Shown: piece after piece, positions 1,029-30,995 of the stretch
Numbering within the stretch: position 1 is the stretch's first letter
Layout: each line of letters starts with the position of its first letter
Virus record (IMG/VR): IMGVR_UViG_3300047560_000218
Coordinates: 1-34,623 of that record
DNA length: 34,623 nt
Origin: a virus
Reading direction: 5' to 3' (one strand)
Program-made: the position numbers and the translations under genes
The notes under the pieces: model-generated
What the model saw: only the letters and a program-made list of their open reading frames with translations
Told to the model about the DNA's origin: nothing
Databases searched by the model: none

Positions 1029-4000
1029 ATGTCTAGTCCGTCCAATCTATATGCCGAAAAGGTATTTGCAGAGTACCCACTTGAATTGTGGTCTCTTGAC
1101 GATGCCACAGACTACGTGTCGTTAATTACAGAATCTCAAAGAAATATTACTACAGGCTGGACAGTATCAAGAACTGGAATTGGCTCTACATCAGTATCAG
1201 TAACAAATGTAACCTCAACATTTGCAGAAGAAGATGCACCAATTCAAACATCTGGAATTTATAAAGTTTTGACACAACCAGCAGGAACTTTTACATCCAA
1301 CCCAGCTACAATCACACTAACAAGTGATACAACATTTGATCTAGGTCTTGAAACAGAATTCGCCATTGGGCTATCAACTCTGGCAAGTCCAAACACTACA
1401 GGAATTAGAGTTGGATACAAGGTTGGGTCCTCAGAAGTAGAGTGGTCTTCTTCATATAAAACAAAAGATTTTGTGTGGAGTGCAATTAGTCACACATTTT
1501 CACTAGCAGAGCCATTACCAGGACCAGCCAACATTGTTATAGAAATATCATTTTCATATTCTGGAACAAATGGTTCTCAATATATTTTTTATTTCAATGG
1601 AATTTCTGTCGGTATTAGATCAGAAGAGTTCTACGCAACATCAACTGGTATCATTCCAATTGAGAAGCCCATATCTTTTCCAATAACAGACTCTTCTGTT
1701 ATGGTATACCCAGCAAATCCGTACAGCCTATCTGACAACTATGGTTACTATACAGTTGATAATGGTTCTATCTTAAGAGCAAGAAACTCAACTATCCCCC
1801 TTGTATATGGAGCATCAAATTCTACAATTCTTTCAAAGGCTGACAATGGAAATCCATCACTTGTAATTCCTGGTCAAGGTTTATTCAATGATTCTGGGAA
1901 AGGCTTTATTAGAACTATGGAATGCTGGATAAGGCTTAATTCATCTGGGTCAGAATATAGAAGAATTATCGGACCTGTGTCTTCATCTACAAATGGACTT
2001 TATGTTCATGGACCATTTATGTCACTTAAAGTTGGAGATGCCATTGGCTCATACTTTGTTGGTGAGTGGTCAAGACCAATGCTTATTCAAATTATCATAC
2101 AAGAAAAAACGGTATCCTTAAAGGTAAACGCAGAAACTGTAATAACTCTAGACGTAGAAGTTAAGAATGAATCACTTGAGCCAAGCACAAATGATTGGAT
2201 TGGGTTTTATGCCTATGATGATGTAACTGAATTTGAGGTTGACTGTATTGCAATCTATCCATATGTTGTTTCAGACAAAGTAGCAAAGAAAAGATATGTA
2301 TATGGTCAGGGAGTCGTTCTTCCAGAATCTACCAATACATCTTATGGTGGATCATCAATAGTTATTGACTATAGCTTTGCAGACTATGACAAGAACCACT
2401 CATTCCCAAAGAATACGCCATGGTCAAGTGGTATTGTTCAAAATCTTTTTGCAGACAAAGAAAGAATAGGATTCAATAACTATTCAATTCCATCATCAAA
2501 CTTTGGAAAGAACACATACGATGAATGGCTATCTGTTATGCAAAATGTTGAGCAAGACACAGAGATGACAGATATTGGTCGTGCAGCATTCTATATGAAA
2601 CCAACATACTATCTTGATGGTGGAACAGTCTCAGTATTTGACTTGGGGAATCCATACTTCTATATGCAAAATCTAGATATGTTGACTAACTCACGAGTGT
2701 CTGGCATAAGCGTTATATTTAAAAACAACTCTGCGATATCAGATACCGACCTACAAACACTAATTTACATTGAGGACTATTTAACACTAAAGTCTTTTGA
2801 GATTTGTGCCTCAAGTGAAGACATCATATATCTATTAAATGGTGTTGAGATTGAAAGACGGCATGTGAGGGATGCTGAAGATCCAACAATCAAAGCAGTT
2901 GCAGGAATAAACATCGATTTATTTAGAAATATATCTTCCGATGCGTTCTCATTTTTCTCAGACCTGTCAAGACTAAGACTTTATATTGGTGGAAAGCCAG
3001 GTACATTCAATACATTTACTGGACCATTATACGAAATTTCACTAATGTCATCATTAGATGTGTCAAAGATTAGCTCCTCATTTGATTCAGACGGATACGC
3101 TACACATACAGAAGTTTCTGAGTTTGAAACTCTTATTCCAGCATATAAGTTGGTTGGAACATCAACATTGGGCACATTCAATCTTGACATTTCGTCAAGT
3201 GGTTACTGGGAAGACTACACCCCAATGACAATATTTAAGAAGGAACTAACACTTGAAGATGGAACCACTTTAGAAGATGTTTCAATGCTTCAAGTGAATG
3301 TTGACTATCCAACTGTTCCTCCAGGTGCAACAACATATGACACCAGTAACTCTTATGCAAGATTCTATGTGGCATTTCAAAATGCTTCGGATGGAATTGT
3401 TATGACATCTGGTAGAACTGACGTATCTGCAAAAAGCAATGGAGTAGTAATTCCAGGTGTTGACTGGGAAACAGAGAGATACGAAATCGTTGACGGTATG
3501 GTGATTGCACTCCCTGACCATGATGACGTTGATGACCTTATTCTTATTTATAGCATGGAAATAAAATCATCAAGCATATCAACAACACCAGTTATTATTA
3601 GATCGTTTGAGATTTGTTCACTAACATTTGATGAACAAACTTTGAGACCAATTGGTACAAAATATGGTACAAAGATTTATCCATTTAAAGAGATTGAGGA
3701 TGAGTCATATGTTTCATCAAAGGACAATTACTTCAAAATATATAAAGGAACAACACCATATCTATATCTAACATCAAAGACAGGAGTATCTGTTGTTGGA
3801 GACATTAAGTCACCAACAGACCAGGACTACGTTCACAGAGGAATTGTGGCAATCATCAATCAAGACTTGGCACAAAACTATGACATTAGTTCTATTATGA
3901 TGTCAGTGAGATATCAGGATAAATATTTCCCAACCACAAAGACACCTGTATTTGAAATTGAGGGTCACATATTTGATGAGGGTACTATTAAGAATGCATA

Positions 4001-4598
4001 CCTAAGATTCTACATTCAGTCAGTAAACCAAGATAATACTCGTGGACGACTATTCTGCGAAGCAAGTATTAGTCAAGGATCTTTCTCAGCATATGAAAAT
4101 ATTGTTTATTACTGGAATGGCAACATTGTTGGTTATCCACAAATGTCCAGTGGTGAGTGGGGAATGCTTGCAATATCATTTACAAACTTTATAAAGTTCC
4201 CAGCAGTTTCTGGGACATTCGAAATTCTTGGAAAACTTCTAGTTGACAACGTTTCAGTCTATAAGATTTCAGAAACCACAGCATCATCATCTACAACAAT
4301 TAATACCTGGAATACAGCCCTATATGGTTCTGGAACATGGGGGCTAGTACTTGATACAGATGGTACGGAGACACCAACCAATGACCCAGCAGACGACAAC
4401 CTATGGTTTAATACATATTCTATTGTCAAAACATCTACAAAACCAGTAGATCAGACAGAAATTTATCGTTCATACCTAGGAACTAACAAGATTATCGTTG
4501 ACACTACTGATAGTAATATAGCAATTCGTCCAGAGTCTTGTGAATATGTTATCTATAATGCAGTAGAATGGAAAACTTCTGTACTAGATGCTCTATAG
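1029..4598 (+). CDS. Large tail fibre / adhesin-like minor tail protein with LamG-like domain
   Basis: This 1189-residue protein starts at ATG 1029, with AGGTG five bases upstream, and ends at TAG 4596-4598. The N-terminus (SNLYAEKVFAEYPLELWSLDD) looks like an actinophage tail-fibre opening, and the rest is beta-rich with few charged runs. A concanavalin A/LamG-like sandwich can be traced at about residues 265-425, with MECWIRL, GLYVHGPFMSLKVGD and a late VDCIAIYPY strand. Such domains bind carbohydrate or host surface. More sandwich-like repeats follow (for example DNVSVYKIS near the C-terminus). Arg is coded mainly by AGA, unlike the capsid genes. The gene sits directly before the head genes, not after the tail hub. 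Receptor binding is inferred from domain type, not shown. Confidence 0.7.
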   Translation: MSSPSNLYAEKVFAEYPLELWSLDDATDYVSLITESQRNITTGWTVSRTGIGSTSVSVTNVTSTFAEEDAPIQTSGIYKVLTQPAGTFTSNPATITLTSDTTFDLGLETEFAIGLSTLASPNTTGIRVGYKVGSSEVEWSSSYKTKDFVWSAISHTFSLAEPLPGPANIVIEISFSYSGTNGSQYIFYFNGISVGIRSEEFYATSTGIIPIEKPISFPITDSSVMVYPANPYSLSDNYGYYTVDNGSILRARNSTIPLVYGASNSTILSKADNGNPSLVIPGQGLFNDSGKGFIRTMECWIRLNSSGSEYRRIIGPVSSSTNGLYVHGPFMSLKVGDAIGSYFVGEWSRPMLIQIIIQEKTVSLKVNAETVITLDVEVKNESLEPSTNDWIGFYAYDDVTEFEVDCIAIYPYVVSDKVAKKRYVYGQGVVLPESTNTSYGGSSIVIDYSFADYDKNHSFPKNTPWSSGIVQNLFADKERIGFNNYSIPSSNFGKNTYDEWLSVMQNVEQDTEMTDIGRAAFYMKPTYYLDGGTVSVFDLGNPYFYMQNLDMLTNSRVSGISVIFKNNSAISDTDLQTLIYIEDYLTLKSFEICASSEDIIYLLNGVEIERRHVRDAEDPTIKAVAGINIDLFRNISSDAFSFFSDLSRLRLYIGGKPGTFNTFTGPLYEISLMSSLDVSKISSSFDSDGYATHTEVSEFETLIPAYKLVGTSTLGTFNLDISSSGYWEDYTPMTIFKKELTLEDGTTLEDVSMLQVNVDYPTVPPGATTYDTSNSYARFYVAFQNASDGIVMTSGRTDVSAKSNGVVIPGVDWETERYEIVDGMVIALPDHDDVDDLILIYSMEIKSSSISTTPVIIRSFEICSLTFDEQTLRPIGTKYGTKIYPFKEIEDESYVSSKDNYFKIYKGTTPYLYLTSKTGVSVVGDIKSPTDQDYVHRGIVAIINQDLAQNYDISSIMMSVRYQDKYFPTTKTPVFEIEGHIFDEGTIKNAYLRFYIQSVNQDNTRGRLFCEASISQGSFSAYENIVYYWNGNIVGYPQMSSGEWGMLAISFTNFIKFPAVSGTFEILGKLLVDNVSVYKISETTASSSTTINTWNTALYGSGTWGLVLDTDGTETPTNDPADDNLWFNTYSIVKTSTKPVDQTEIYRSYLGTNKIIVDTTDSNIAIRPESCEYVIYNAVEWKTSVLDAL

Positions 4599-12166: not shown

Positions 12167-12841
12167 ATGGCTAATAACTACAAACGTGGAAATAACGCCC
12201 AGATCGTAGTTGGTGCAGCTGCCCTTTTCGTTAAGGACTCAGGCTCACTAGCAGACGATACTGAAATTCCAGCATTCGAAGCAGGTGTCGATTACAAGAA
12301 GACATTGTCAGACACTACAGACGGTGCAGGTTGGACAAACGTTGGTTATACCAGCAATGGTCTAGAGCTTATGTTCGAACCTGACTTCGGTGAAGTTAAG
12401 GTTGACCAGCTACTTGACGTTGCAAAACTATTCAAGCAGGGCATGAAGGTATCACTTAAGACAAGCTTCGCAGAAGCAACTCTTGAGAACCTTCTTCTTG
12501 CAATCGCTGCCACCAACGAAATTGGTGTTCACTCAGAGAACGATGCTCCAGCAGGTTCTTCACTTGAGATTATCTCAGGTGAACTTGGTGAATATCCAGT
12601 AGAGCGTGGTCTTATCGCTGTCGGTGCATCTATCGACGCAGATGAGGTTACAGGTACAGGAGACTCAGCACAGCGTGTTTACGTTGCATACCGTGCTCTT
12701 TCAATTGAAAGCGTTACAGTATCAGCAAAGCGTGATGAGGCAACAATGTTCGAAGTAAACTTCCGTCTACTACCAAATGACGCAGGTGCTTACGGTAAGA
12801 TCATTGACCGTTCATACGGCAAAGCAAACGACCCAGCATAA
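12167..12841 (+). CDS. Major tail (tube) protein
   Basis: This 224-residue protein should assemble as the hollow tail tube. ATG 12167 follows AGAGGTGA. The middle is beta-rich with VGYTSNGLELMFEPDFGEVKV; the end has RDEATMFEVNFRLLPND, a pattern typical of siphovirus tube subunits. It stands between the tail terminator and chaperone genes, as expected. All Arg codons seen are CGT, as in the capsid gene, consistent with a high-copy structural protein. It has its own promoter and is closed by a strong terminator, so it appears to be a single-gene unit. No tail-sheath gene is next to it, supporting a non-contractile tail. Confidence 0.85.
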   Translation: MANNYKRGNNAQIVVGAAALFVKDSGSLADDTEIPAFEAGVDYKKTLSDTTDGAGWTNVGYTSNGLELMFEPDFGEVKVDQLLDVAKLFKQGMKVSLKTSFAEATLENLLLAIAATNEIGVHSENDAPAGSSLEIISGELGEYPVERGLIAVGASIDADEVTGTGDSAQRVYVAYRALSIESVTVSAKRDEATMFEVNFRLLPNDAGAYGKIIDRSYGKANDPA

Positions 12842-12862
12842 TGGATCAATAACTAAATAGGG

Positions 12863-12897
12863 ACTGCCCTGGCTTCGGCTGGGGCAGTTTCGTTTTT
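12863..12897 (+). terminator. Intrinsic terminator with UUCG loop after the tail tube gene
   Basis: The arms 12863-12873 and 12878-12888 form an 11-base-pair stem (two G-U pairs) closed by C(UUCG)G, an extra-stable tetraloop, and are followed by TTTCGTTTTT. This is a textbook intrinsic terminator, 21 bases after the tube gene stop. Confidence 0.9.
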
Positions 12898-12905
12898 GGT
12901 ATAAT
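12897..12905 (+). promoter_or_regulatory. Extended -10 promoter for a leaderless chaperone gene (TGGTATAAT)
   Basis: TGG-TATAAT begins in the terminator U-tract, and ATG 12912 starts 6 bases after the -10, at the expected transcription start. No ribosome site precedes the ATG. A -35 would fall in the terminator stem and is not present. Confidence 0.7.
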
Positions 12906-12911
12906 ATATGT

Positions 12912-13628
12912 ATGCCTAAAGAAATAATAAAAAAGACTAAGATACAGCTTATAGATGGAACGGTAGTTAAGGTTGAACCATTAAAATTAGCATATCTAAA
13001 AGAAGTCATGGAACGATTTGATGATCTAAAGACATCACAATCAGAAGACGAGTCAATGGAAATAATCCTTGATTGTGTAGCAATATCAATGCAACAATTT
13101 TACCCAGAATTAAATACCACAGAAAAGGTAGCAGACAGCATTGATATGAAAACGCTATATGTAATCCTAGAATACGGTGCAAACATCTCAATGGACCCAT
13201 CAAAGAGTAAGCCAATTGAGGAACAGGCACAGGAAGAGTTAAAGAAGAAAAAGGACTCTCAGGAGAATGAGTCGTGGGAAGAGTTTGACCTAATGAAGTA
13301 TGAGCTGCAAGTATTCTTGCTAGGCATTTGGAAAAACTTAGATGAACTTGAACGCTCACTATCTTTGCCAGAATTAACAGAAATACTTTCAACACATAAT
13401 GAGAATGAGTATAACAATAGAAAGTTCTCAGCAGCGATTCAGGGTGTAGACCTTGAAGGTGGCAAGGAAGAAGAAGACCCATGGGAGGCTATGAAAGCAA
13501 GGGTAGCAGAAAAGACATCTGGTATTTCAGTAGCCAACTCAAACGATATTACATCATTCCAAGGAGTAAAGGCTAGACAGGCTGGCTTCGGTATTGGCAT
13601 GGGTCTTGACTATGAAAGAATAGATTAG
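12912..13628 (+). CDS. Tail assembly chaperone, long form
   Basis: This 238-residue protein should bind the tape measure and help tube subunits assemble around it; it is not expected in the virion. Residues 1-90 align over nearly their whole length, with a one-residue gap, to the next gene product: shared IDGT/LDGT at 14-17, PL at 23-24, E31, M33, F36, the C-V pair near 55 and the PEL motif; about a third of positions are identical by eye. A Lys/Glu linker follows (about 100-120), then a second domain with LDELERSLSLPELTEIL and EYNNRKFSAAIQG, like the T part of a lambda G-T fusion. The transcript is probably leaderless. Order (tube, chaperones, tape measure) makes the role solid. Confidence 0.8.
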   Translation: MPKEIIKKTKIQLIDGTVVKVEPLKLAYLKEVMERFDDLKTSQSEDESMEIILDCVAISMQQFYPELNTTEKVADSIDMKTLYVILEYGANISMDPSKSKPIEEQAQEELKKKKDSQENESWEEFDLMKYELQVFLLGIWKNLDELERSLSLPELTEILSTHNENEYNNRKFSAAIQGVDLEGGKEEEDPWEAMKARVAEKTSGISVANSNDITSFQGVKARQAGFGIGMGLDYERID

Positions 13629-13641
13629 CCAAATTGTTTTA

Positions 13642-13650
13642 TGGTATAAT
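13642..13650 (+). promoter_or_regulatory. Extended -10 promoter (TGGTATAAT)
   Basis: An exact TGG-TATAAT lies in the 48-base gap between the two chaperone genes, giving a predicted start near 13657 and a 20-base leader with AGGAGG at 13667-13672. No -35 box is seen. It lets the short chaperone be made apart from the long one. Confidence 0.7.
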
Positions 13651-13676
13651 TTAAGTACAAACCTATAGGAGGAATA

Positions 13677-13991
13677 ATGGCAACAACCATTAACGAGGCA
13701 AAAACAATTGCCCTGCTTGACGGAACAGAAATCGAAATCCGTCCACTGCGAATCTCACTACTTCGTGAGTTTATGAAGTCATTTGAGCAGATCGCTGGAG
13801 TAGCAGAAGACAACGAAAAATCAATGAACCTTCTTCTTGAATGCGTAACTATTGCATTCAAGCAGTTCAAGCCTGAGCTGGCAGAAGACCCAAAGGCACT
13901 AGAGGATCTTCTAGACCTACCAACCGTCTACAGCATTGTAGAGGAAGCTTCTGGAATCCCAATGGGATACGGAATTGGTGGAGCAGCCTAA
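13677..13991 (+). CDS. Tail assembly chaperone, short form (paralog of the N-terminal domain)
   Basis: The product is 104 residues, with AGGAGG and a 4-base spacer before ATG 13677. It is a paralog of residues 1-90 of the preceding gene (LDGTEIEIRPLRISLLREF against IDGTVVKVEPLKLAYLKEV) and stops after a short Gly-rich tail (GIPMGYGIGGAA) where the long form goes on into its second domain. It therefore corresponds to the unshifted G product of lambda, while the long gene corresponds to G-T. Only 25 bases separate it from the tape measure start, so there is no room for a frameshifted extension. The better ribosome site and its own promoter suggest it is made in greater amount than the long form. 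Confidence 0.8.
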   Translation: MATTINEAKTIALLDGTEIEIRPLRISLLREFMKSFEQIAGVAEDNEKSMNLLLECVTIAFKQFKPELAEDPKALEDLLDLPTVYSIVEEASGIPMGYGIGGAA

Positions 13992-14016: not shown

Positions 14017-17000
14017 ATGAGCGATGTCAATTCAAATATTAATGTAAATATTGATACGTCAGGTGCACTGGCGAGTATCAAGGATTTGCAGAGACAGATA
14101 TCGCTCTTCCACCAGGAAATGGCTCGTTCTGGTTCTGCAGCAAACCAAGCTGCAGCCAGAAGCCTACAAAGCACATTGATGAACAACATCAATGCTACAG
14201 GACAATTTAGAAGTCAAATAAAAACAATCCAGTCTGAGACTGAACACTTTACAGAACAACTTGAACGTAACAAGATGTCTGTTGGGCAGTACTTCAGATA
14301 CGCTGGTGCAGCAACTAAAAACTTTGGTAGACTCTGGAAAAGTGAGTTTAATACAATTGAAAAAGTTGCAATTGAAAGAGTAAAGACCCTACAGACTCAG
14401 TACATCAAGCTCGGTCGTGATGCTAACGGAGCATTGAAAGCTATCCAGGTTAGACCACTAGCACTTGATATGAATAACCTTGCTACAAAGGCAGCAGTCG
14501 CTGCCCAGAAGCAACAGCTACTTAACCAACTACTTAAGCAGGGTTCAACTGCAATGCTTAACTGGGGTAAGAATACTCAGTGGGCTGGTCGTCAGCTTAT
14601 GGTTGGTTTTACCATTCCATTGTCTATGGCAGGAACTGCTGCAGCCAAGGCATATATTGAATTTGAAAAAGCAGCAATTAAGTTTAAGCGTGTATACGGT
14701 GACTTCAATACAGCATCTTCTGAAACAGACAAGATGGCTGACTCAGTTAAGAAGCTCGCTCTTGAATACACAAAGTATGGTGTAGCAGTAGCAGACACAA
14801 TGAACATGGCTGCAGATGCAGCAGCAATGGGTAAGACTGGTACAGACCTTCTACAGCAAATTCAGCAAGCCAATAAGCTGGCGGTATTGGGTAACGTAGA
14901 GCAGTCACAGGCACTAGAAACCACAATGTCACTTACAAATGCATTTGGTATTGCTACACAAGATTTGACAAAGAAGATCGACTTCCTAAACGCAGTTGAA
15001 AACCAGACTGTAACATCTATTGAAGACCTAACAATTGCAATTCCAAAGGCTGCTCCTGTCATTAAGCAGCTTGGTGGAGATGTAGAAGACCTAGCCTACT
15101 TCCTGACAGCAATGAAGGAAGGTGGAGTTAATGCAGCAGAAGGTGCTAACGCTCTAAAGTCTGGTCTTGCATCTATGATTAACCCAACTAAGAAGGCATC
15201 AGACTTCCTTAGTGGACTTGGTATTAACATTCAGGGTATTGTTGAGGCAAACAAGGGCGACATTGCTAAGACAGTTACTACATTTGCCAAAGAACTTGAC
15301 AAACTTGACCCACTAAACCGTGCTCGTGCAATTGAACAGCTTTTTGGTAAGTTCCAGTTCTCACGTATGTCAACACTATTTCAGAACATCAGCAAAGACG
15401 GTAGCCAGGCACAGCAGGTTCTAAAGATGACACAGATGACAGCAGAAGAGTTGTCTGTCCTATCTGAACGAGAAATGAAGAAGATCGAAAGTTCTCCTGC
15501 ATACAAGTTCCAAAAAGTATTAGCAGACATTCAGGCAAAGCTTGTTCCTATCGGTGAGGCATTCCTAAAGGCTATTACTCCAATTATTGAAAAAGTTGGC
15601 GGTATTCTTGATGGCTTTAACAACATGGGCGAAGGTGCAAAACAATTTGCTGTAATGGCTACTGTTGCTATTGCAGGTATTGGTCCTGTAGCACTTATGG
15701 CATTTGGTCTTATCGCTAACGGTGTAGCAAACCTTATTAAAATGTTTGCAGCTATGAAGTCATTCTTCAATGGCACACGAGGTGGAGCACAAGACCTAGG
15801 TGACACCACCGCATACATGACACAAAAAGAGCTAGAGGCTCAAGCAGTAGCATCATCTCTTGAACAGTCACACGCAAAACTTACACAACAGTTTACAGTG
15901 CAAGCGGATGCAATTAGAAACCTAGTTGCTGAGTATGAGCGAGCAATTGGTGCACAACAAAGACTGGCTGCTGGTAGTGCAGTTGCTGGTGGTGCTGGTG
16001 TTACACCAACAAGAAAGATGGCAGAGGGTGGTATCGTTACTGGTCCAGGTGGACCAACAGACGACGCTGTTCCTACAAACCTATCTGACGGTGAAGCAGT
16101 TATTCCTGCAGCAGCAGTTAAGAAGAATCCAGGAGTTGTTGGTGCTCTAATTCAGGGCAAGAAGATTAACATTCCTGGATACGCTGGTGGATTCGGTGGC
16201 GGAGAATATGTATACGACCCATCAGATAGAACTGCTGAGACTCACCTACAGGCTGCATCACCACTAAACCAGGATCTTGCAGGGTACAATGCACAACTTG
16301 TAAACAACATGCTTGCAGCACGACCACAACTAGCACAGGTGTCTGCAGCAGTATCAAGCCACATTGAAATTCTAGGAAGCCTAGTAGCAAATCTTCCAAA
16401 CAAGTTGAACGAAAATCTTAAGCGACCACTTGGTGTTGCCATTGAACAGTTTGACGCAGCTTGGGAAGGTACTTCAAACAAGCTACAGGATACAGTAGCA
16501 TTTGGACTAAAGAAACTCGGAGAATCTTTTGATCCATCCAACCCACAGATCCAGGCAGAGATTGCACAGATTGAGTCACAGATTCAGGCTAAGGTAAGAA
16601 CTCTTGCAGCACAACAAACAGGAGAGATGGCTGGAAGGGTAACAGATGCAATTGTTACACAGGCAACCTCTGAGGTGCTTGCAAATAGCGATACACAGGC
16701 AGCCAGAGGACTTAGAGCAGCAGCAGTCACACCAAGAGAGTATAGAACAGACTACTCAAATAAAGAACTATCAGAGTCCATTGTTAGTGGAGAACTAAGC
16801 GTTTCAAGAACATCAACTGGAACTCCAAAGATTACTGACCCAGCATCTGGACTTCAAGTTGGTCGTGGAAGAAACCTAAAGGACATGGACCGTGTCCAGC
16901 AAATGGACATGCTTGAGTCATTGTCTGGTGCAGAACGAGATGATTTCATCCGAAACAAGTTTGCAGTTAGACAAGAATCAAAGTTTGTCGGTGCTAAGTT

Positions 17001-20000
17001 TGACAAGCCAGCATTCGAAGCATCAGAGGCTACCAGAGTAAAGGCAAAAGAAAATGGAGCACAGGATGCCAAGAGCTACCAAGAGGGCATGGAGTCTAGC
17101 AGACCAAAAGATCCATACATTGTTGCCACAGAGACTACTAGAAACAGTCCAATTCCAAAGGCTGGTAAAAATGGTGCAGAGGATGCACAGCTATATTCAA
17201 CTGAGTATGAGAAGAACCTAAAGATTCCTGGTGTTCCAACACCTGGTGCAGCATTGCCAAAGACAGGCAGCTCTGGTCTTGCTTCTGGTCAGGGCATTCC
17301 AGGTGCTCCACAGCCACCTGCTATGCCAGCTGAATCAGGAAAGACTAACTTCCTTGCAAGAATGAAGAGTACCGCATCTGACCTTGGAGATAAGGCTCTT
17401 GGTGGAATTGCAAACGGTATTGATAAGGGTAAGGCAAAGGTTACTCAAGCAGCACAGTCATATGTAGATAACTGGAATGCAAGTATTGACAGAGAAGTTG
17501 CTGCTAACCGAAAAGCAAGTTCTGCAAGAATGGACCTAGCATCAAGAATTCTTGAGGCTACAGATGCAGAGTATGCTGCTATCAAGGCAGAGCAGGATGC
17601 CTACCAAGCTAAATTACTTGAGACAAATCAGGCTACAGAGGCAGAGATCCAGGCAGCAGTCGAACGCTCAAAGGTACTTGACCAGAAGAGACAAGCTATC
17701 GCTAGAGACATTGAAAACAGTGGCGAAGACCTTAAGGTAATTGAGCAAAGACTTGCAAATGCACAACAAGCAGACATGGTAAATGACCTTGAGGCTGCAA
17801 ATGCTGCTCAGGATGGAGCTACTGTTCAACAACGTGGTGCAGCTGCTCAAGGTGGTTCTGGAACTACTGCTGGTCAAATTATTTATGATACAGAAGATGG
17901 TAAACCAAAGACACCAATGACATATGGTGAGTTCAGAAACAATACAAAGGGAATGACTCGTAAAGAAAGAAAAGCAGAATTTAAGAACCTATCTAAGGCT
18001 GATAGAAAGTCTGTAAGGGCTGGTGGATTTAAGGCTGTCGGTGGCGGAATGCAAAAAGCAGCAATGGTTGGAACTATGGTTGCAGGTGCTGCATCAATGA
18101 TGCCAGGACCAGTTGGAGAGGCTGCACAGCAAGCAACACCACTACTTGGTTCACTATCAATGCTTTCTGGATTTATTACTGGTCCTGTATCTGGTGCTTT
18201 TGTTGCATTAGCAGCAGTTATTGGTGGTATTGTATTCTCAATTATGAAGCTTGATGAAGCATTCAAGAATTCATCTCAGGAACAAATTGATATTGCTAAC
18301 AAGCTTGGTTCAAGTGCTGAGGGTATTGCAACTCTAGCTGAAGCAAGCGGTAGCGTTACTGGTGCTGAATATATGGATAAGGTAAATGCACAAAAGATGT
18401 CTGGTCTATTTGCTGCACCAGGAAAAACAACGTTTGGTGAAAACTTTGTCAAGGGTGATGCAGGTAAGGCTATGCTTGATGCAGCAAAGAAGCAACTTGC
18501 ATCTGGTGGCTCAAGTAGCGATGTTTCGTCATCATTGAGCCAGCAACTATCAACAGGTGTTATGTCTGGTGCTCTATCAGCAGATCAGGCACGAAGCATT
18601 GCTGCAAACATTGGTTTGGCACTTGGAGACACCACAATTGGTCTTAAGGCAAATGCACAGATTGTAGACATCGTTGGTCCAGATGGAAAAGCATTTGAGG
18701 ACAATCCAGCAATGGTTGCTACAAAATTATACGACAAGAATGCAGCTGAACGTGAAACATTGATGAAGGGCATGAACCCTGGAACAATTTGGAGTGGTGG
18801 ACAAAACAATGCAGTAAATAGAAACATCACTGCTGGAGGAACTGTACTAGGTGCTGCTGGTGTTGGTGCTGGTATTGGTGCTGCAATTGGTTCCGTAATC
18901 CCTGGTGTTGGTACTGCAATTGGTGCGGTAGTTGGAACAATTGGTGGTGCTATTGTAGGAAGCATTACAGCAATTGGAACAATGGAGGAACAGGCAAAGA
19001 AGGCAGGTAGAGCAGCAGGTGCTGTAGTTGCAAATATCTCTCAGGGTCTAGAACAGCAAAAGCAGATCACAGCATCCCTTGACGCATACTATGACAAGAA
19101 GCTAAAGGAAGCTGAGGCAGAGGGAGACATTACTGAGTATAAGAGACTACAGCTTGAATATGACCAGAAGAAGAAGGAACTTGGTGAAGCGAATGCCAAG
19201 GCTGCTCAGGACATGATTGCATCATACGATGCAGCAGACCAAGCTGGTAAAGACGCAATGGACACAGGTATGACCAACGCTCTTGATACTAAATTTAAGG
19301 ATGATGCTGCTGCACAGCTAGTTCTTCCAGGACTAAAGAATCAGATTCAAGCACTTAAAGATGCTGGTAAGGGTGGAGAGGCGTTTGCTCTTCAGGCTCA
19401 ACTTCTAAATGGAATGGACCCAACACAGCTTACAAAGTTCTTGTCTTCTAACGAAGGCGGTACAGATGAGCAGAATGCTGCAAATACAGCATCAACAGAT
19501 AAACTAATCGCTGCTGGTGGTACAAGACTACAGGATGCAATGAATGTTGCTCAGGGTATTACAGACCAAACTGTTAGAACAACATTCCTTACACAGGTAT
19601 CTGGAATGGATGATGCAGAAGCAAAGAAGGCACAAGACCTAGCATTTAAGATTCAGTCATTCTGTGGTGTAATGCAGAACTCTGTAGACACAATGCTAAG
19701 TTATGTAATGGACCCTGCTAACGCAGATGCTAAGGCAGAGATTGACAGAATCCAGGGAGCACTTGATTCTGACAACGTAACAACTGTTGACAAAGTCTAC
19801 GAGATTGTTCCTGAGCTTGAGGTCAAGGACCCAGAAAAGGCTAAAAAAGATGGTCTTGCATTTAATGAAGAGTACTTTAAATCACTAAAGAATGAGCAGC
19901 AGCAGGAGACCTATGTATCTACTGTCACAACGCTTCTTGAGGTAATGTCTGGAGTAACAACCACAGAGCAACTAAGTAGCAACAAAGACTTTATGGCATG

Positions 20001-22029
20001 GGTTCAGGAAACTGGTCAACAGTTCCCAGGAGAACACTCAGTAATCTGGTGGAAGAATACATATGCAGAAGCTATGGGACAAAAGGTAACAAGTCAATCT
20101 GTTGATAATACTGGAACTGCACCTAAGCCAAAGACCGATGGTGGTGGCGGAGGCGGTGGTCCAGAAGCACACTGGACTGATGAAGTTGTAAAGAGTATGC
20201 GTGACTTTGTAAAACCTAACCAAAAACTTACAACTGGTATCAATGCATCCGTAAAGGCTCTAAAGAACTTTAAGAAGGCTGGAGATGCTGCATTCAATGG
20301 TCTATCAAACAGCCTACGTCAGGCAGGTGCTTCCGAAGGTATGCTTCAAAAGATTCTTGAAGATGATGCTAAGAATGTTGGACGCTTCTTTAAGAATGGA
20401 AAACTAACTGCAGAAGGTCTAAAGGTACAGGCACGTGTCTACCAAGCTTCACTTGGAAAGTATGTTGACAGCCAGAGATCAGTTACAAGAACAACAAATG
20501 ATCAAGCAACTGCAATGCGTAAACTAACAGCAGCAGGTCTATCATACGTAGGTGCTTCTGAAATGGTTCAAGATACAGAACTTGCACAGGCAATTGCAAA
20601 GGGTGCAACAACCAAGCAAATCAAGGCACTGATTAAGGCTTACAAGGATGCACAGGTTGCAGCATATAACTACAACGAGACAACAGAAGAGGGTAGAGCA
20701 AAGAACTCTATCGATATGGCTGAGGCACAGACAAAATCTCTTGAGGCTACAGCAGCTAAGTACCAGACAGGTCTTGACATTATTTCTTCACAAGAAGAAG
20801 ATATTAACAAGACATACGACAAGCGTATGAAAGCACTTGACAAGATTCTACAGGTCAACCAAGAGATTGCAGACTCACAGAAAGATCAGCTATCAATGGC
20901 TGATGCTCTATCAAAGGGTGATATCTTTGCAGCAGCAAAGGCTATGGCTGACCAGAAGTCAAAGGATGCACAGAAGCAAGCAGAAGCACAAAAGCAAGCA
21001 CTAACAGATGCAAAGGATGCTCAAATTGCTGGACTTACTGCTACAATTGGCGGTAAACAAATGAACCGTGAACAGCTTGAGCAAAAGATTAAGGACATTA
21101 ACGACCAGATTCTACAGATTAAGCGTAATGAGATTGATGCACAAAATGAACTTATTGCACGTAAGGAATATGAGGCAAAGCTTGACATTGAGAAGGCTGC
21201 TCGCAACGCTCCTGCTAAGAAGTCTGGAAAGACAAAGAAGGTTAACGCTGCTGGCGGAGGACCTGCTGGTGGAGGACCTACTAATGGAGGACCAGATAAA
21301 AAGGATCCAGGCAAGCAACAGCCAGCCACTGTTCCAGAAGAAAAGAAGTCTCAGCTAGACAAGTACAAAGATTCTGCAAAGAAGCTAAATTCTCAATTTG
21401 CAACTCTGAATAAGTCATTAAATGTTCAGGCTCAAAAGATAGTGGCAGCTAATAAGAAGATTGCTACTGCAAAGCAAATGGGGTCTGCTGGAGCTGGACC
21501 ACTTGCATCTGCACAAAAAGACCTTGCAAATGCAAGAGAAAATAAAGCTATTATTGAAGGATCAATTAGAGGATTAAGAACACAAAGAACAGCACTAATC
21601 AATAAGGCTAGAAACAGTGAGGGTTGGTTGTCAAGCTTTAGTCCAGACTCTGTAGCAAATGTTCTTGGAATTAACTTCAAAAAGGATGGAAAGTCTCCAA
21701 AGCGTATGGGTCTAATGAAGCACCCATTTGCACGAGGAACAGACATGATGCCAACAATGGTTAGCCTAAAAGAATTTACAATGCAAGCATCAGCAGTCCG
21801 TAAGTATGGTGTTGACAAGATGATGAAGATTAACGCAGGGATGCTTGATCTTGATGGCTCTAAAGAAAATGCAGCAAGAGGCAATGCTCCACACAGAAGC
21901 TTCAATCCAGTGTATAATGTTAATGTAGAGGTTGCAAAGTCAGATGCAAGTGCAGAAGAAATCGCATCAGCAGTGATTAAGTACCTTGACAGAAAAGACA
22001 AAGCGGTAATTAAAGGATTGGGATCATAA
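14017..22029 (+). CDS. Tape measure protein
   Basis: This 2670-residue protein sets tail length; at the usual 0.15 nm per residue the tail would be about 400 nm. Residues 180-520 match the TP901/PhageMin_Tail core (GRQLMVGFTIPLSMAGTAAA; the AADAAAMGKTG and EGGVNAAEGANALKSGLA regions). Hydrophobic stretches occur at about 544-578, 1344-1411 and 1611-1655; the last is a Gly-zipper (GAGIGAAIGSVIPGVG), suited to membrane insertion. Two copies of a tape-measure motif are visible: EGGIVTGPGGPTDDAVP...LSDGEAVIPAAAV near 668-715 and a diverged one near 2569-2609 (MVSLKEFTMQASAVRKYG). Long coiled-coil regions and Gly-rich joints (2041-2048, 2411-2430) lie between. No lysozyme or peptidase domain was recognised. 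ATG 14017 has GAGGT 9 bases upstream. Confidence 0.92.
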   Translation: MSDVNSNINVNIDTSGALASIKDLQRQISLFHQEMARSGSAANQAAARSLQSTLMNNINATGQFRSQIKTIQSETEHFTEQLERNKMSVGQYFRYAGAATKNFGRLWKSEFNTIEKVAIERVKTLQTQYIKLGRDANGALKAIQVRPLALDMNNLATKAAVAAQKQQLLNQLLKQGSTAMLNWGKNTQWAGRQLMVGFTIPLSMAGTAAAKAYIEFEKAAIKFKRVYGDFNTASSETDKMADSVKKLALEYTKYGVAVADTMNMAADAAAMGKTGTDLLQQIQQANKLAVLGNVEQSQALETTMSLTNAFGIATQDLTKKIDFLNAVENQTVTSIEDLTIAIPKAAPVIKQLGGDVEDLAYFLTAMKEGGVNAAEGANALKSGLASMINPTKKASDFLSGLGINIQGIVEANKGDIAKTVTTFAKELDKLDPLNRARAIEQLFGKFQFSRMSTLFQNISKDGSQAQQVLKMTQMTAEELSVLSEREMKKIESSPAYKFQKVLADIQAKLVPIGEAFLKAITPIIEKVGGILDGFNNMGEGAKQFAVMATVAIAGIGPVALMAFGLIANGVANLIKMFAAMKSFFNGTRGGAQDLGDTTAYMTQKELEAQAVASSLEQSHAKLTQQFTVQADAIRNLVAEYERAIGAQQRLAAGSAVAGGAGVTPTRKMAEGGIVTGPGGPTDDAVPTNLSDGEAVIPAAAVKKNPGVVGALIQGKKINIPGYAGGFGGGEYVYDPSDRTAETHLQAASPLNQDLAGYNAQLVNNMLAARPQLAQVSAAVSSHIEILGSLVANLPNKLNENLKRPLGVAIEQFDAAWEGTSNKLQDTVAFGLKKLGESFDPSNPQIQAEIAQIESQIQAKVRTLAAQQTGEMAGRVTDAIVTQATSEVLANSDTQAARGLRAAAVTPREYRTDYSNKELSESIVSGELSVSRTSTGTPKITDPASGLQVGRGRNLKDMDRVQQMDMLESLSGAERDDFIRNKFAVRQESKFVGAKFDKPAFEASEATRVKAKENGAQDAKSYQEGMESSRPKDPYIVATETTRNSPIPKAGKNGAEDAQLYSTEYEKNLKIPGVPTPGAALPKTGSSGLASGQGIPGAPQPPAMPAESGKTNFLARMKSTASDLGDKALGGIANGIDKGKAKVTQAAQSYVDNWNASIDREVAANRKASSARMDLASRILEATDAEYAAIKAEQDAYQAKLLETNQATEAEIQAAVERSKVLDQKRQAIARDIENSGEDLKVIEQRLANAQQADMVNDLEAANAAQDGATVQQRGAAAQGGSGTTAGQIIYDTEDGKPKTPMTYGEFRNNTKGMTRKERKAEFKNLSKADRKSVRAGGFKAVGGGMQKAAMVGTMVAGAASMMPGPVGEAAQQATPLLGSLSMLSGFITGPVSGAFVALAAVIGGIVFSIMKLDEAFKNSSQEQIDIANKLGSSAEGIATLAEASGSVTGAEYMDKVNAQKMSGLFAAPGKTTFGENFVKGDAGKAMLDAAKKQLASGGSSSDVSSSLSQQLSTGVMSGALSADQARSIAANIGLALGDTTIGLKANAQIVDIVGPDGKAFEDNPAMVATKLYDKNAAERETLMKGMNPGTIWSGGQNNAVNRNITAGGTVLGAAGVGAGIGAAIGSVIPGVGTAIGAVVGTIGGAIVGSITAIGTMEEQAKKAGRAAGAVVANISQGLEQQKQITASLDAYYDKKLKEAEAEGDITEYKRLQLEYDQKKKELGEANAKAAQDMIASYDAADQAGKDAMDTGMTNALDTKFKDDAAAQLVLPGLKNQIQALKDAGKGGEAFALQAQLLNGMDPTQLTKFLSSNEGGTDEQNAANTASTDKLIAAGGTRLQDAMNVAQGITDQTVRTTFLTQVSGMDDAEAKKAQDLAFKIQSFCGVMQNSVDTMLSYVMDPANADAKAEIDRIQGALDSDNVTTVDKVYEIVPELEVKDPEKAKKDGLAFNEEYFKSLKNEQQQETYVSTVTTLLEVMSGVTTTEQLSSNKDFMAWVQETGQQFPGEHSVIWWKNTYAEAMGQKVTSQSVDNTGTAPKPKTDGGGGGGGPEAHWTDEVVKSMRDFVKPNQKLTTGINASVKALKNFKKAGDAAFNGLSNSLRQAGASEGMLQKILEDDAKNVGRFFKNGKLTAEGLKVQARVYQASLGKYVDSQRSVTRTTNDQATAMRKLTAAGLSYVGASEMVQDTELAQAIAKGATTKQIKALIKAYKDAQVAAYNYNETTEEGRAKNSIDMAEAQTKSLEATAAKYQTGLDIISSQEEDINKTYDKRMKALDKILQVNQEIADSQKDQLSMADALSKGDIFAAAKAMADQKSKDAQKQAEAQKQALTDAKDAQIAGLTATIGGKQMNREQLEQKIKDINDQILQIKRNEIDAQNELIARKEYEAKLDIEKAARNAPAKKSGKTKKVNAAGGGPAGGGPTNGGPDKKDPGKQQPATVPEEKKSQLDKYKDSAKKLNSQFATLNKSLNVQAQKIVAANKKIATAKQMGSAGAGPLASAQKDLANARENKAIIEGSIRGLRTQRTALINKARNSEGWLSSFSPDSVANVLGINFKKDGKSPKRMGLMKHPFARGTDMMPTMVSLKEFTMQASAVRKYGVDKMMKINAGMLDLDGSKENAARGNAPHRSFNPVYNVNVEVAKSDASAEEIASAVIKYLDRKDKAVIKGLGS

Positions 22030-30545: not shown

Positions 30546-30554
30546 TGATATAAT
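30546..30554 (+). promoter_or_regulatory. Extended -10 promoter (TGATATAAT)
   Basis: TGA-TATAAT is followed directly by AGGAG (30555-30559) and ATG 30564. The expected start is near 30561, after the AGGAG, so a transcript from here would lack the ribosome site and be nearly leaderless, while read-through transcripts would use AGGAG. The -35 region (TTGTAT, 30526-30531) is weak. Confidence 0.55.
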
Positions 30555-30563
30555 AGGAGTATT

Positions 30564-30995
30564 ATGGGATCGTTAAATATACCAAACAAGGGTCAGCCAA
30601 TTGACTACTCTTACATTAAGCAGATTGTAGATGCTGTAAACCGACTTCAGGATGCAAAGTCAAGTGACTCTAACATTCTTGATAAGGCAACAAATACACA
30701 GAACAGAGTTAGTACTAATAACGTTGTTATGGTAACTAGGTATGTCGAAGTATCATTCTCAGAAAAGGCTACATCTAGCCGAATTGAGTTTGGGTCAAGC
30801 TTTAAGACAACCCCAATTGTGACTGCTACTATTGTTTCTACAAACGACGGTAACGACCCAGAAAAGACAACTCTTGCACTGCAAAATGTAACAAGCACAG
30901 GCTGCGAAGTTCTTCTGTACTCAATTGAGAAGAAGCAGAAGAAGGTTGGAATTAACATTATTGCTATTGGCGAGGGGCTAAGTAGGGCAGTCTAA
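30564..30995 (+). CDS. Small tail-associated protein, possible H-type-lectin-like domain
   Basis: The product is 143 residues. Residues 1-45 form a helix (YIKQIVDAVNRLQDAKSS) that could trimerise or anchor to the tail tip. Residues 55-143 are a compact beta domain: TRYVEVSFSEKATSSRIEFG, then FKTTPIVTATIVSTNDG and GCEVLLYSIEKK. A strand pattern with F-x-T-x-P-x-V is shared with H-type lectin-like domains found at the ends of phage fibres. This is a resemblance by eye only. It is the last gene of the structural block and comes just before a DNA-binding protein gene, with one-base overlap of stop and start. Confidence 0.6.
   Translation: MGSLNIPNKGQPIDYSYIKQIVDAVNRLQDAKSSDSNILDKATNTQNRVSTNNVVMVTRYVEVSFSEKATSSRIEFGSSFKTTPIVTATIVSTNDGNDPEKTTLALQNVTSTGCEVLLYSIEKKQKKVGINIIAIGEGLSRAV

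Follow-up and report, generated by a model that had tools for sequence, protein, structure and literature searches.

The tail locus analysed here raises the question of how a long-tailed phage can supply a short and a long tail assembly chaperone from two adjacent genes. In most long-tailed phages both proteins come from one gene via ribosomal slippage; tail-chaperone frameshifting is among the most conserved recoding events known. The −1 frameshift kind of tail assembly chaperones was reportedly described by Xu, Hendrix and Duda in 2004. In the lambda kind, the −1 frameshift gives a ratio of 30:1 (PMC5009743). Like lambda gpG/gpGT, the window (the whole 34,623-nucleotide stretch of IMG/VR record IMGVR_UViG_3300047560_000218) encodes a short G and a long G-T protein with a common N-terminal domain, their genes lying between those for the major tail and tape measure proteins; whereas lambda frameshifts, the long protein here is an in-frame fusion (G~T) and the short one is encoded by a separate downstream gene (Table 1). 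As argued below, the long G~T and the separate short G are very probably two chaperone isoforms made from two genes, with the excess of the short form set by initiation signals.

Table 1. Features of the two-gene chaperone locus and its flanks, in window coordinates
Feature	Coordinates	Strand	Evidence or remark
Major tail tube protein (Ig-type domain), upstream of the chaperone pair	12167..12841	+	PHROG 2175, E 7.6e-32; syntenic to the gene annotated as major tail protein in Streptomyces phages
Intrinsic terminator hairpin between major tail protein and long gene	12860..12891	+	−24.7 kcal/mol, z −5.3, T tail
Extended −10 TGGTATAAT of long gene	12897..12905	+	Hexamer ends 6 nt before ATG 12912
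Long tail assembly chaperone, in-frame G~T fusion, 238 aa	12912..13628	+	PHROG 10504 on residues 7-94, PHROG 10474 on 139-210
Long chaperone domains: G, residues 1-98; T, about 127-238	within 12912..13628	+	
Extended −10 TGGTATAAT of short gene	13642..13650	+	26 nt before ATG 13677, AGGAGG between
Shine-Dalgarno AGGAGG of short gene	13668..13673 (within a base or two)	+	Sequence
Short tail assembly chaperone, stand-alone G domain, 104 aa	13677..13991	+	PHROG 10504, E 1.6e-14; BLASTP to long copy 3e-18
Tape measure protein, 2670 residues, expected client of G domains	14017..22029	+	PHROG 10030, E 1e-94 on first 667 residues

The first-pass annotation had placed both reading frames correctly and had described the short protein as about one-third identical to the first 90 residues of the long one, with a single gap. 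BLASTP matches the short protein to residues 1-94 of the long protein over 96 residues (34% identity, 63% positives, E = 3e-18), so that the level of identity holds, while the similarity extends further (96-98 residues) and contains two one-residue gaps. A pairwise profile comparison, named in the first-pass annotation as the test that could refute paralogy, gave clear homology: the two family profiles, built from alignments of 59 and 60 members, align over 98 columns with a probability of 99.9% (E = 9e-35). PHROG 10504 matches almost all of the short protein and the N-terminal region of the long one, and PHROG 10474 falls within the C-terminal half of the latter; the N-terminal domain is thus common to both proteins and the extra C-terminal domain is confined to the long one. 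The flanking major tail and tape measure genes were recognised by their PHROGs, and the gene order is the same in relatives. Upstream of the portal gene, the window also contains an ORF of 1189 residues (1029-4598) with no Pfam or PHROG match.

That these genes encode tail assembly chaperones, as initially proposed, is supported by their position, by relatives annotated as such and by fold matches. The AlphaFold model of the long chaperone (pLDDT 81.5), in which the G domain and helices to about residue 176 are well predicted and the last 60 residues poorly, matches in BFVD the predicted structure of phage N15 gpGT (E 3.6e-4), along with further predicted tail chaperones. Foldseek found no significant match in the PDB (best E 1.1; HK97 gp13 third), and a second-look alignment to solved structures returned YqbN (Z 6.3), a phage-like island protein (Z 5.0) and HK97 gp13 (Z 4.8) as its top three. 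The matches to YqbN and HK97 gp13 are modest, in the range of chance matches, and would be unconvincing by themselves. Nothing credible was found with both family profiles among the sequences of solved structures, and a Pfam search gave no match.

Among sequenced phages, tblastn with the long protein retrieved mainly Streptomyces phages (127 of 130 records), with E values down to 2e-27 to genes annotated as tail assembly chaperone; the portal of the window likewise leads to these phages. All four Streptomyces phage records opened (Coruscant, TunaTartare, Beuffert and Teutsch) are classed as Stanwilliamsviridae. Their G and T domains are homologous to those of the window (33-41% identity) and lie in the same synteny, in most with an extended −10 and a Shine-Dalgarno sequence before G. 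In contrast to the window, their locus comprises one annotated tail assembly chaperone gene, G, overlapping a second ORF, T, in the −1 frame (annotated as a joined CDS in TunaTartare), and neither a second G copy nor an in-frame fusion was present in these four records.

Environmental sequences hold both arrangements. In IMG/VR, an in-frame fused G~T followed by a second G was found in at least 269 loci (202 distinct DNA sequences) and the overlapping G/T type in at least 53 (35 distinct, including four from Streptomyces phages), the distinct-DNA counts allowing for contigs fetched repeatedly under different queries. Every complete locus among the matches listed has exactly one of the two arrangements; the remaining few loci are cut by contig ends. 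A profile search identified 572 loci encoding relatives, of which the best 80 were classified. Clustering at 90% identity gave the 60 lineages referred to below. The nearest named phages to the two-gene virus infect Streptomyces. A search of genome contigs with the short-copy profile gave no match and therefore no host, while the long-copy profile matched one contig, from an uncultured cyanobacterium assembly, whose chaperone is of the frameshift type and therefore permits no host inference. On this contig of 110 kb the G/T chaperone forms a cassette with the tape measure gene, and the contig could be phage DNA that was binned into the cyanobacterium assembly.

The frameshift site itself can be followed from one arrangement to the other. 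T lies in the −1 frame relative to G in all overlapping G/T loci, and CCCAAAC/T or GGGAAAC occurs at the junction in 13 of 15 loci of the first set and in all 38 later loci; the four Streptomyces phages have CCCAAAT except for Coruscant and Teutsch, the two loci without a canonical XXXYYYZ heptamer, where C CCG GAA occupies its place in the same D-P codons. The tail motif ...GIKLnDPNLL of frameshifting G reads ...GIKLtDASLL in many short copies, the DPN codons being replaced by DAS, DAA, DTS and similar. Across the 60 lineages, no short copy contains CCCAAA and three contain any heptamer, and no heptamer is present at the long-gene junction in the window. The window locus thus has, in place of the slippery site and overlapping −1 T frame of the lambda kind, an in-frame fusion. 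The earlier proposal that two genes replace frameshifting agrees with this absence, from both copies, of the older −1 site of relatives.

Each gene has its own promoter motif, TGGTATAAT, as had been claimed. Exact TGNTATAAT occurs six times in the window against 1.67 expected by chance, in every case on the + strand and shortly before an ORF start. At 30546-30564, TGNTATAAT has its hexamer ending 9 nt before ATG 30564; the 143-aa ORF that starts there has no known function and may likewise be near-leaderless. Before the long gene, a hairpin with a T-rich tail is present in all 60 lineages (against 4 of 90 shuffles), and the extended −10 hexamer lies no more than 9 nt from the start in 55 and exactly 6 nt from it in 44, a placement within 9 nt that is seen at 2 of 374 other gene starts of the same loci. 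A 5-base Shine-Dalgarno core is found before none of the 60 long genes and a 4-base core before two. With the extended −10 about 6 nt before the ATG, the long-gene mRNA is predicted to start at or next to the A of ATG 12912 and hence to be leaderless. The short gene, by comparison, has its extended −10 24-30 nt before the ATG in 47 of 60 lineages and a Shine-Dalgarno core of at least 4 bases in all 60, resembling frameshift-type G in both respects. The contrast between a leaderless-type long gene and a short gene with AGGAGG, first noticed in this window, is therefore kept in the 60 lineages. The interval between the long and the short gene shows no clear terminator (5/60), so that the short gene could be translated from both transcripts. 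No Rfam element was found in the window.

We posit that in this long-tailed, actinophage-like virus the long isoform is a permanent in-frame G~T fusion and the short isoform a separate second G. On the roles established for lambda, many short copies would coat the tape measure protein, and few long copies would recruit tail tube subunits through the T domain. Relatives make both isoforms from a single gene by −1 frameshifting; in this clade the frame is closed and the slippery site gone. The long gene would be transcribed from its own promoter into an mRNA starting at the AUG; the short gene has a promoter of its own and a strong Shine-Dalgarno sequence, and ribosomes could reach it on the long transcript as well. 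The initiation signals of the two genes would set the surplus of short over long. Being leaderless does not by itself imply a rare long product, because leaderless mRNAs in mycobacteria are common and reported to be translated about as well as leadered ones (PMC4633059), as also found in a study that predicted a lower output of transcript from leaderless constructs (PMC7148126). The strength of the promoter and stability may be more important for the rarity of the long product.

Codon adaptation provides an indirect sign of the short-over-long ratio. Measured against major tail proteins, with leave-one-out for the fused type, the median CAI of the short copy (0.624) equals that of frameshift-type G (0.625), and those of the long G part (0.463) and long T part (0.484) are close to that of frameshift-type T (0.475). 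In all 60 lineages the value is higher for the short copy than for the long G domain, and in all 49 frameshift loci it is higher for G than for T. By this measure the G part of the long gene uses codons as a scarcely made protein would, and we infer that the short product would be abundant and the long one rare. Both genes have dN/dS well below 1 in seven pairs, and in the seven close pairs synonymous divergence is 0.2-0.5 for the short gene and 0.7-1.1 for the long gene of the same genomes, the low values of the short gene agreeing with stronger selection on its codons.

On a backbone tree of the major tail and tape measure proteins, a single state change divides the two types. Frameshifting is likely the older state, since the outgroup, Streptomyces and other frameshifting phages, frameshifts. 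The branch uniting the fused type is weakly supported (37%) because of one row (L031). On balance, we favour the reading that a large environmental phage clade switched once from −1 frameshifting, and that the combination of leaderless initiation (long, rare) with Shine-Dalgarno initiation (short, abundant) sets the ratio in place of recoding efficiency.

The origin of the second copy can be read in two ways. In a G-domain tree to which frameshift-type rows had been added, the short copies and the long copies each form a clade of their own; the short clade nests with near frameshift-type G (98/95), and the long copies fall outside on long branches. Local duplication with fast change of the long copy, or capture of G from a frameshifting relative, would both fit. 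The first-pass annotation had seen duplication in place of recoding: a second G copy without a frameshift is indeed present, but an in-place duplication is not demonstrated, since the short copy clusters with frameshifting relatives and not with the long copy. It is quite possible that G, with its promoter and Shine-Dalgarno sequence, was acquired from such a relative and inserted behind a vertically inherited, frame-closed gene, its function staying the same. The nesting of the short copies to the exclusion of the long ones would be explained in this way, as would the resemblance of the short-gene promoter and Shine-Dalgarno sequence to those of frameshift-type G; however, attraction of the long-branched long copies to a distant outgroup can produce this same topology, and a clade of long plus short copies, though not recovered in the tree, was not rejected (p-AU 0.055 and 0.206).

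We consider it unlikely that the two proteins have taken on separate functions, for example the short one acting with the tape measure protein and the long one as a separate initiator or virion part. The long G domain does evolve faster, and more than half of its positions differ from the short copy in every lineage, as such a divergence would have it. Against this, every complete locus of the two-gene type contains both G~T and G, and the codon bias of the two mirrors that of the G/T pair in frameshifting relatives.

Long genes have heptamers within codons 81-125 in 9 of 60 lineages, at scattered positions with nothing conserved, and the counts per 45-codon block in other parts of the gene (14, 5, 17, 18 and 6 of 60) show no enrichment at the junction. 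It is accordingly very improbable that the long gene still recodes in the manner of dnaX, with some ribosomes slipping near the G/T junction and stopping and the extra gene only topping up the short product: the −1 frame does close soon after codon 95 (median 1.5 codons), which would give a G-sized slip product, but these heptamers are no more frequent than in other parts of the gene, 8-base A/T runs occur in 1 of 60 lineages, and the junction in the window has no heptamer.

Two isoforms made by two genes are not without precedent. Some T4-like phages are described in PMC10885494 (citing Vladimirov, Gautam and Davidson 2022, Virology 566:9) as having separate genes for a short and a fused long chaperone, without frameshifting. 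Compared by that description, the T4-like case shares with the present locus a separate short gene and an in-frame long fusion gene, but T4-like phages are myoviruses, whereas the window has a tail locus of Stanwilliamsviridae type, frameshifting sisters and a conserved leaderless/Shine-Dalgarno pair. Going by this account, the two-gene principle is known from some T4-like phages, and what is new here is its occurrence in another virus group, with frameshifting sisters and the leaderless/Shine-Dalgarno pair; the locus is therefore a variant and not the first two-gene replacement. A literature search excluding most subscription journals found no report of the two-gene arrangement in siphoviruses.

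PHROG 10504 and PHROG 10474, both listed as of unknown function, gain putative tail-chaperone identities from this comparison, and two-gene loci are a warning to gene callers against forcing a frameshift where such genes occur. For the phages themselves, both solutions exist among sister lineages: the older slippery site can still be read in one type and has eroded in the other. The codon bias suggests that selection preserves the abundance ratio of the two isoforms and not recoding itself.
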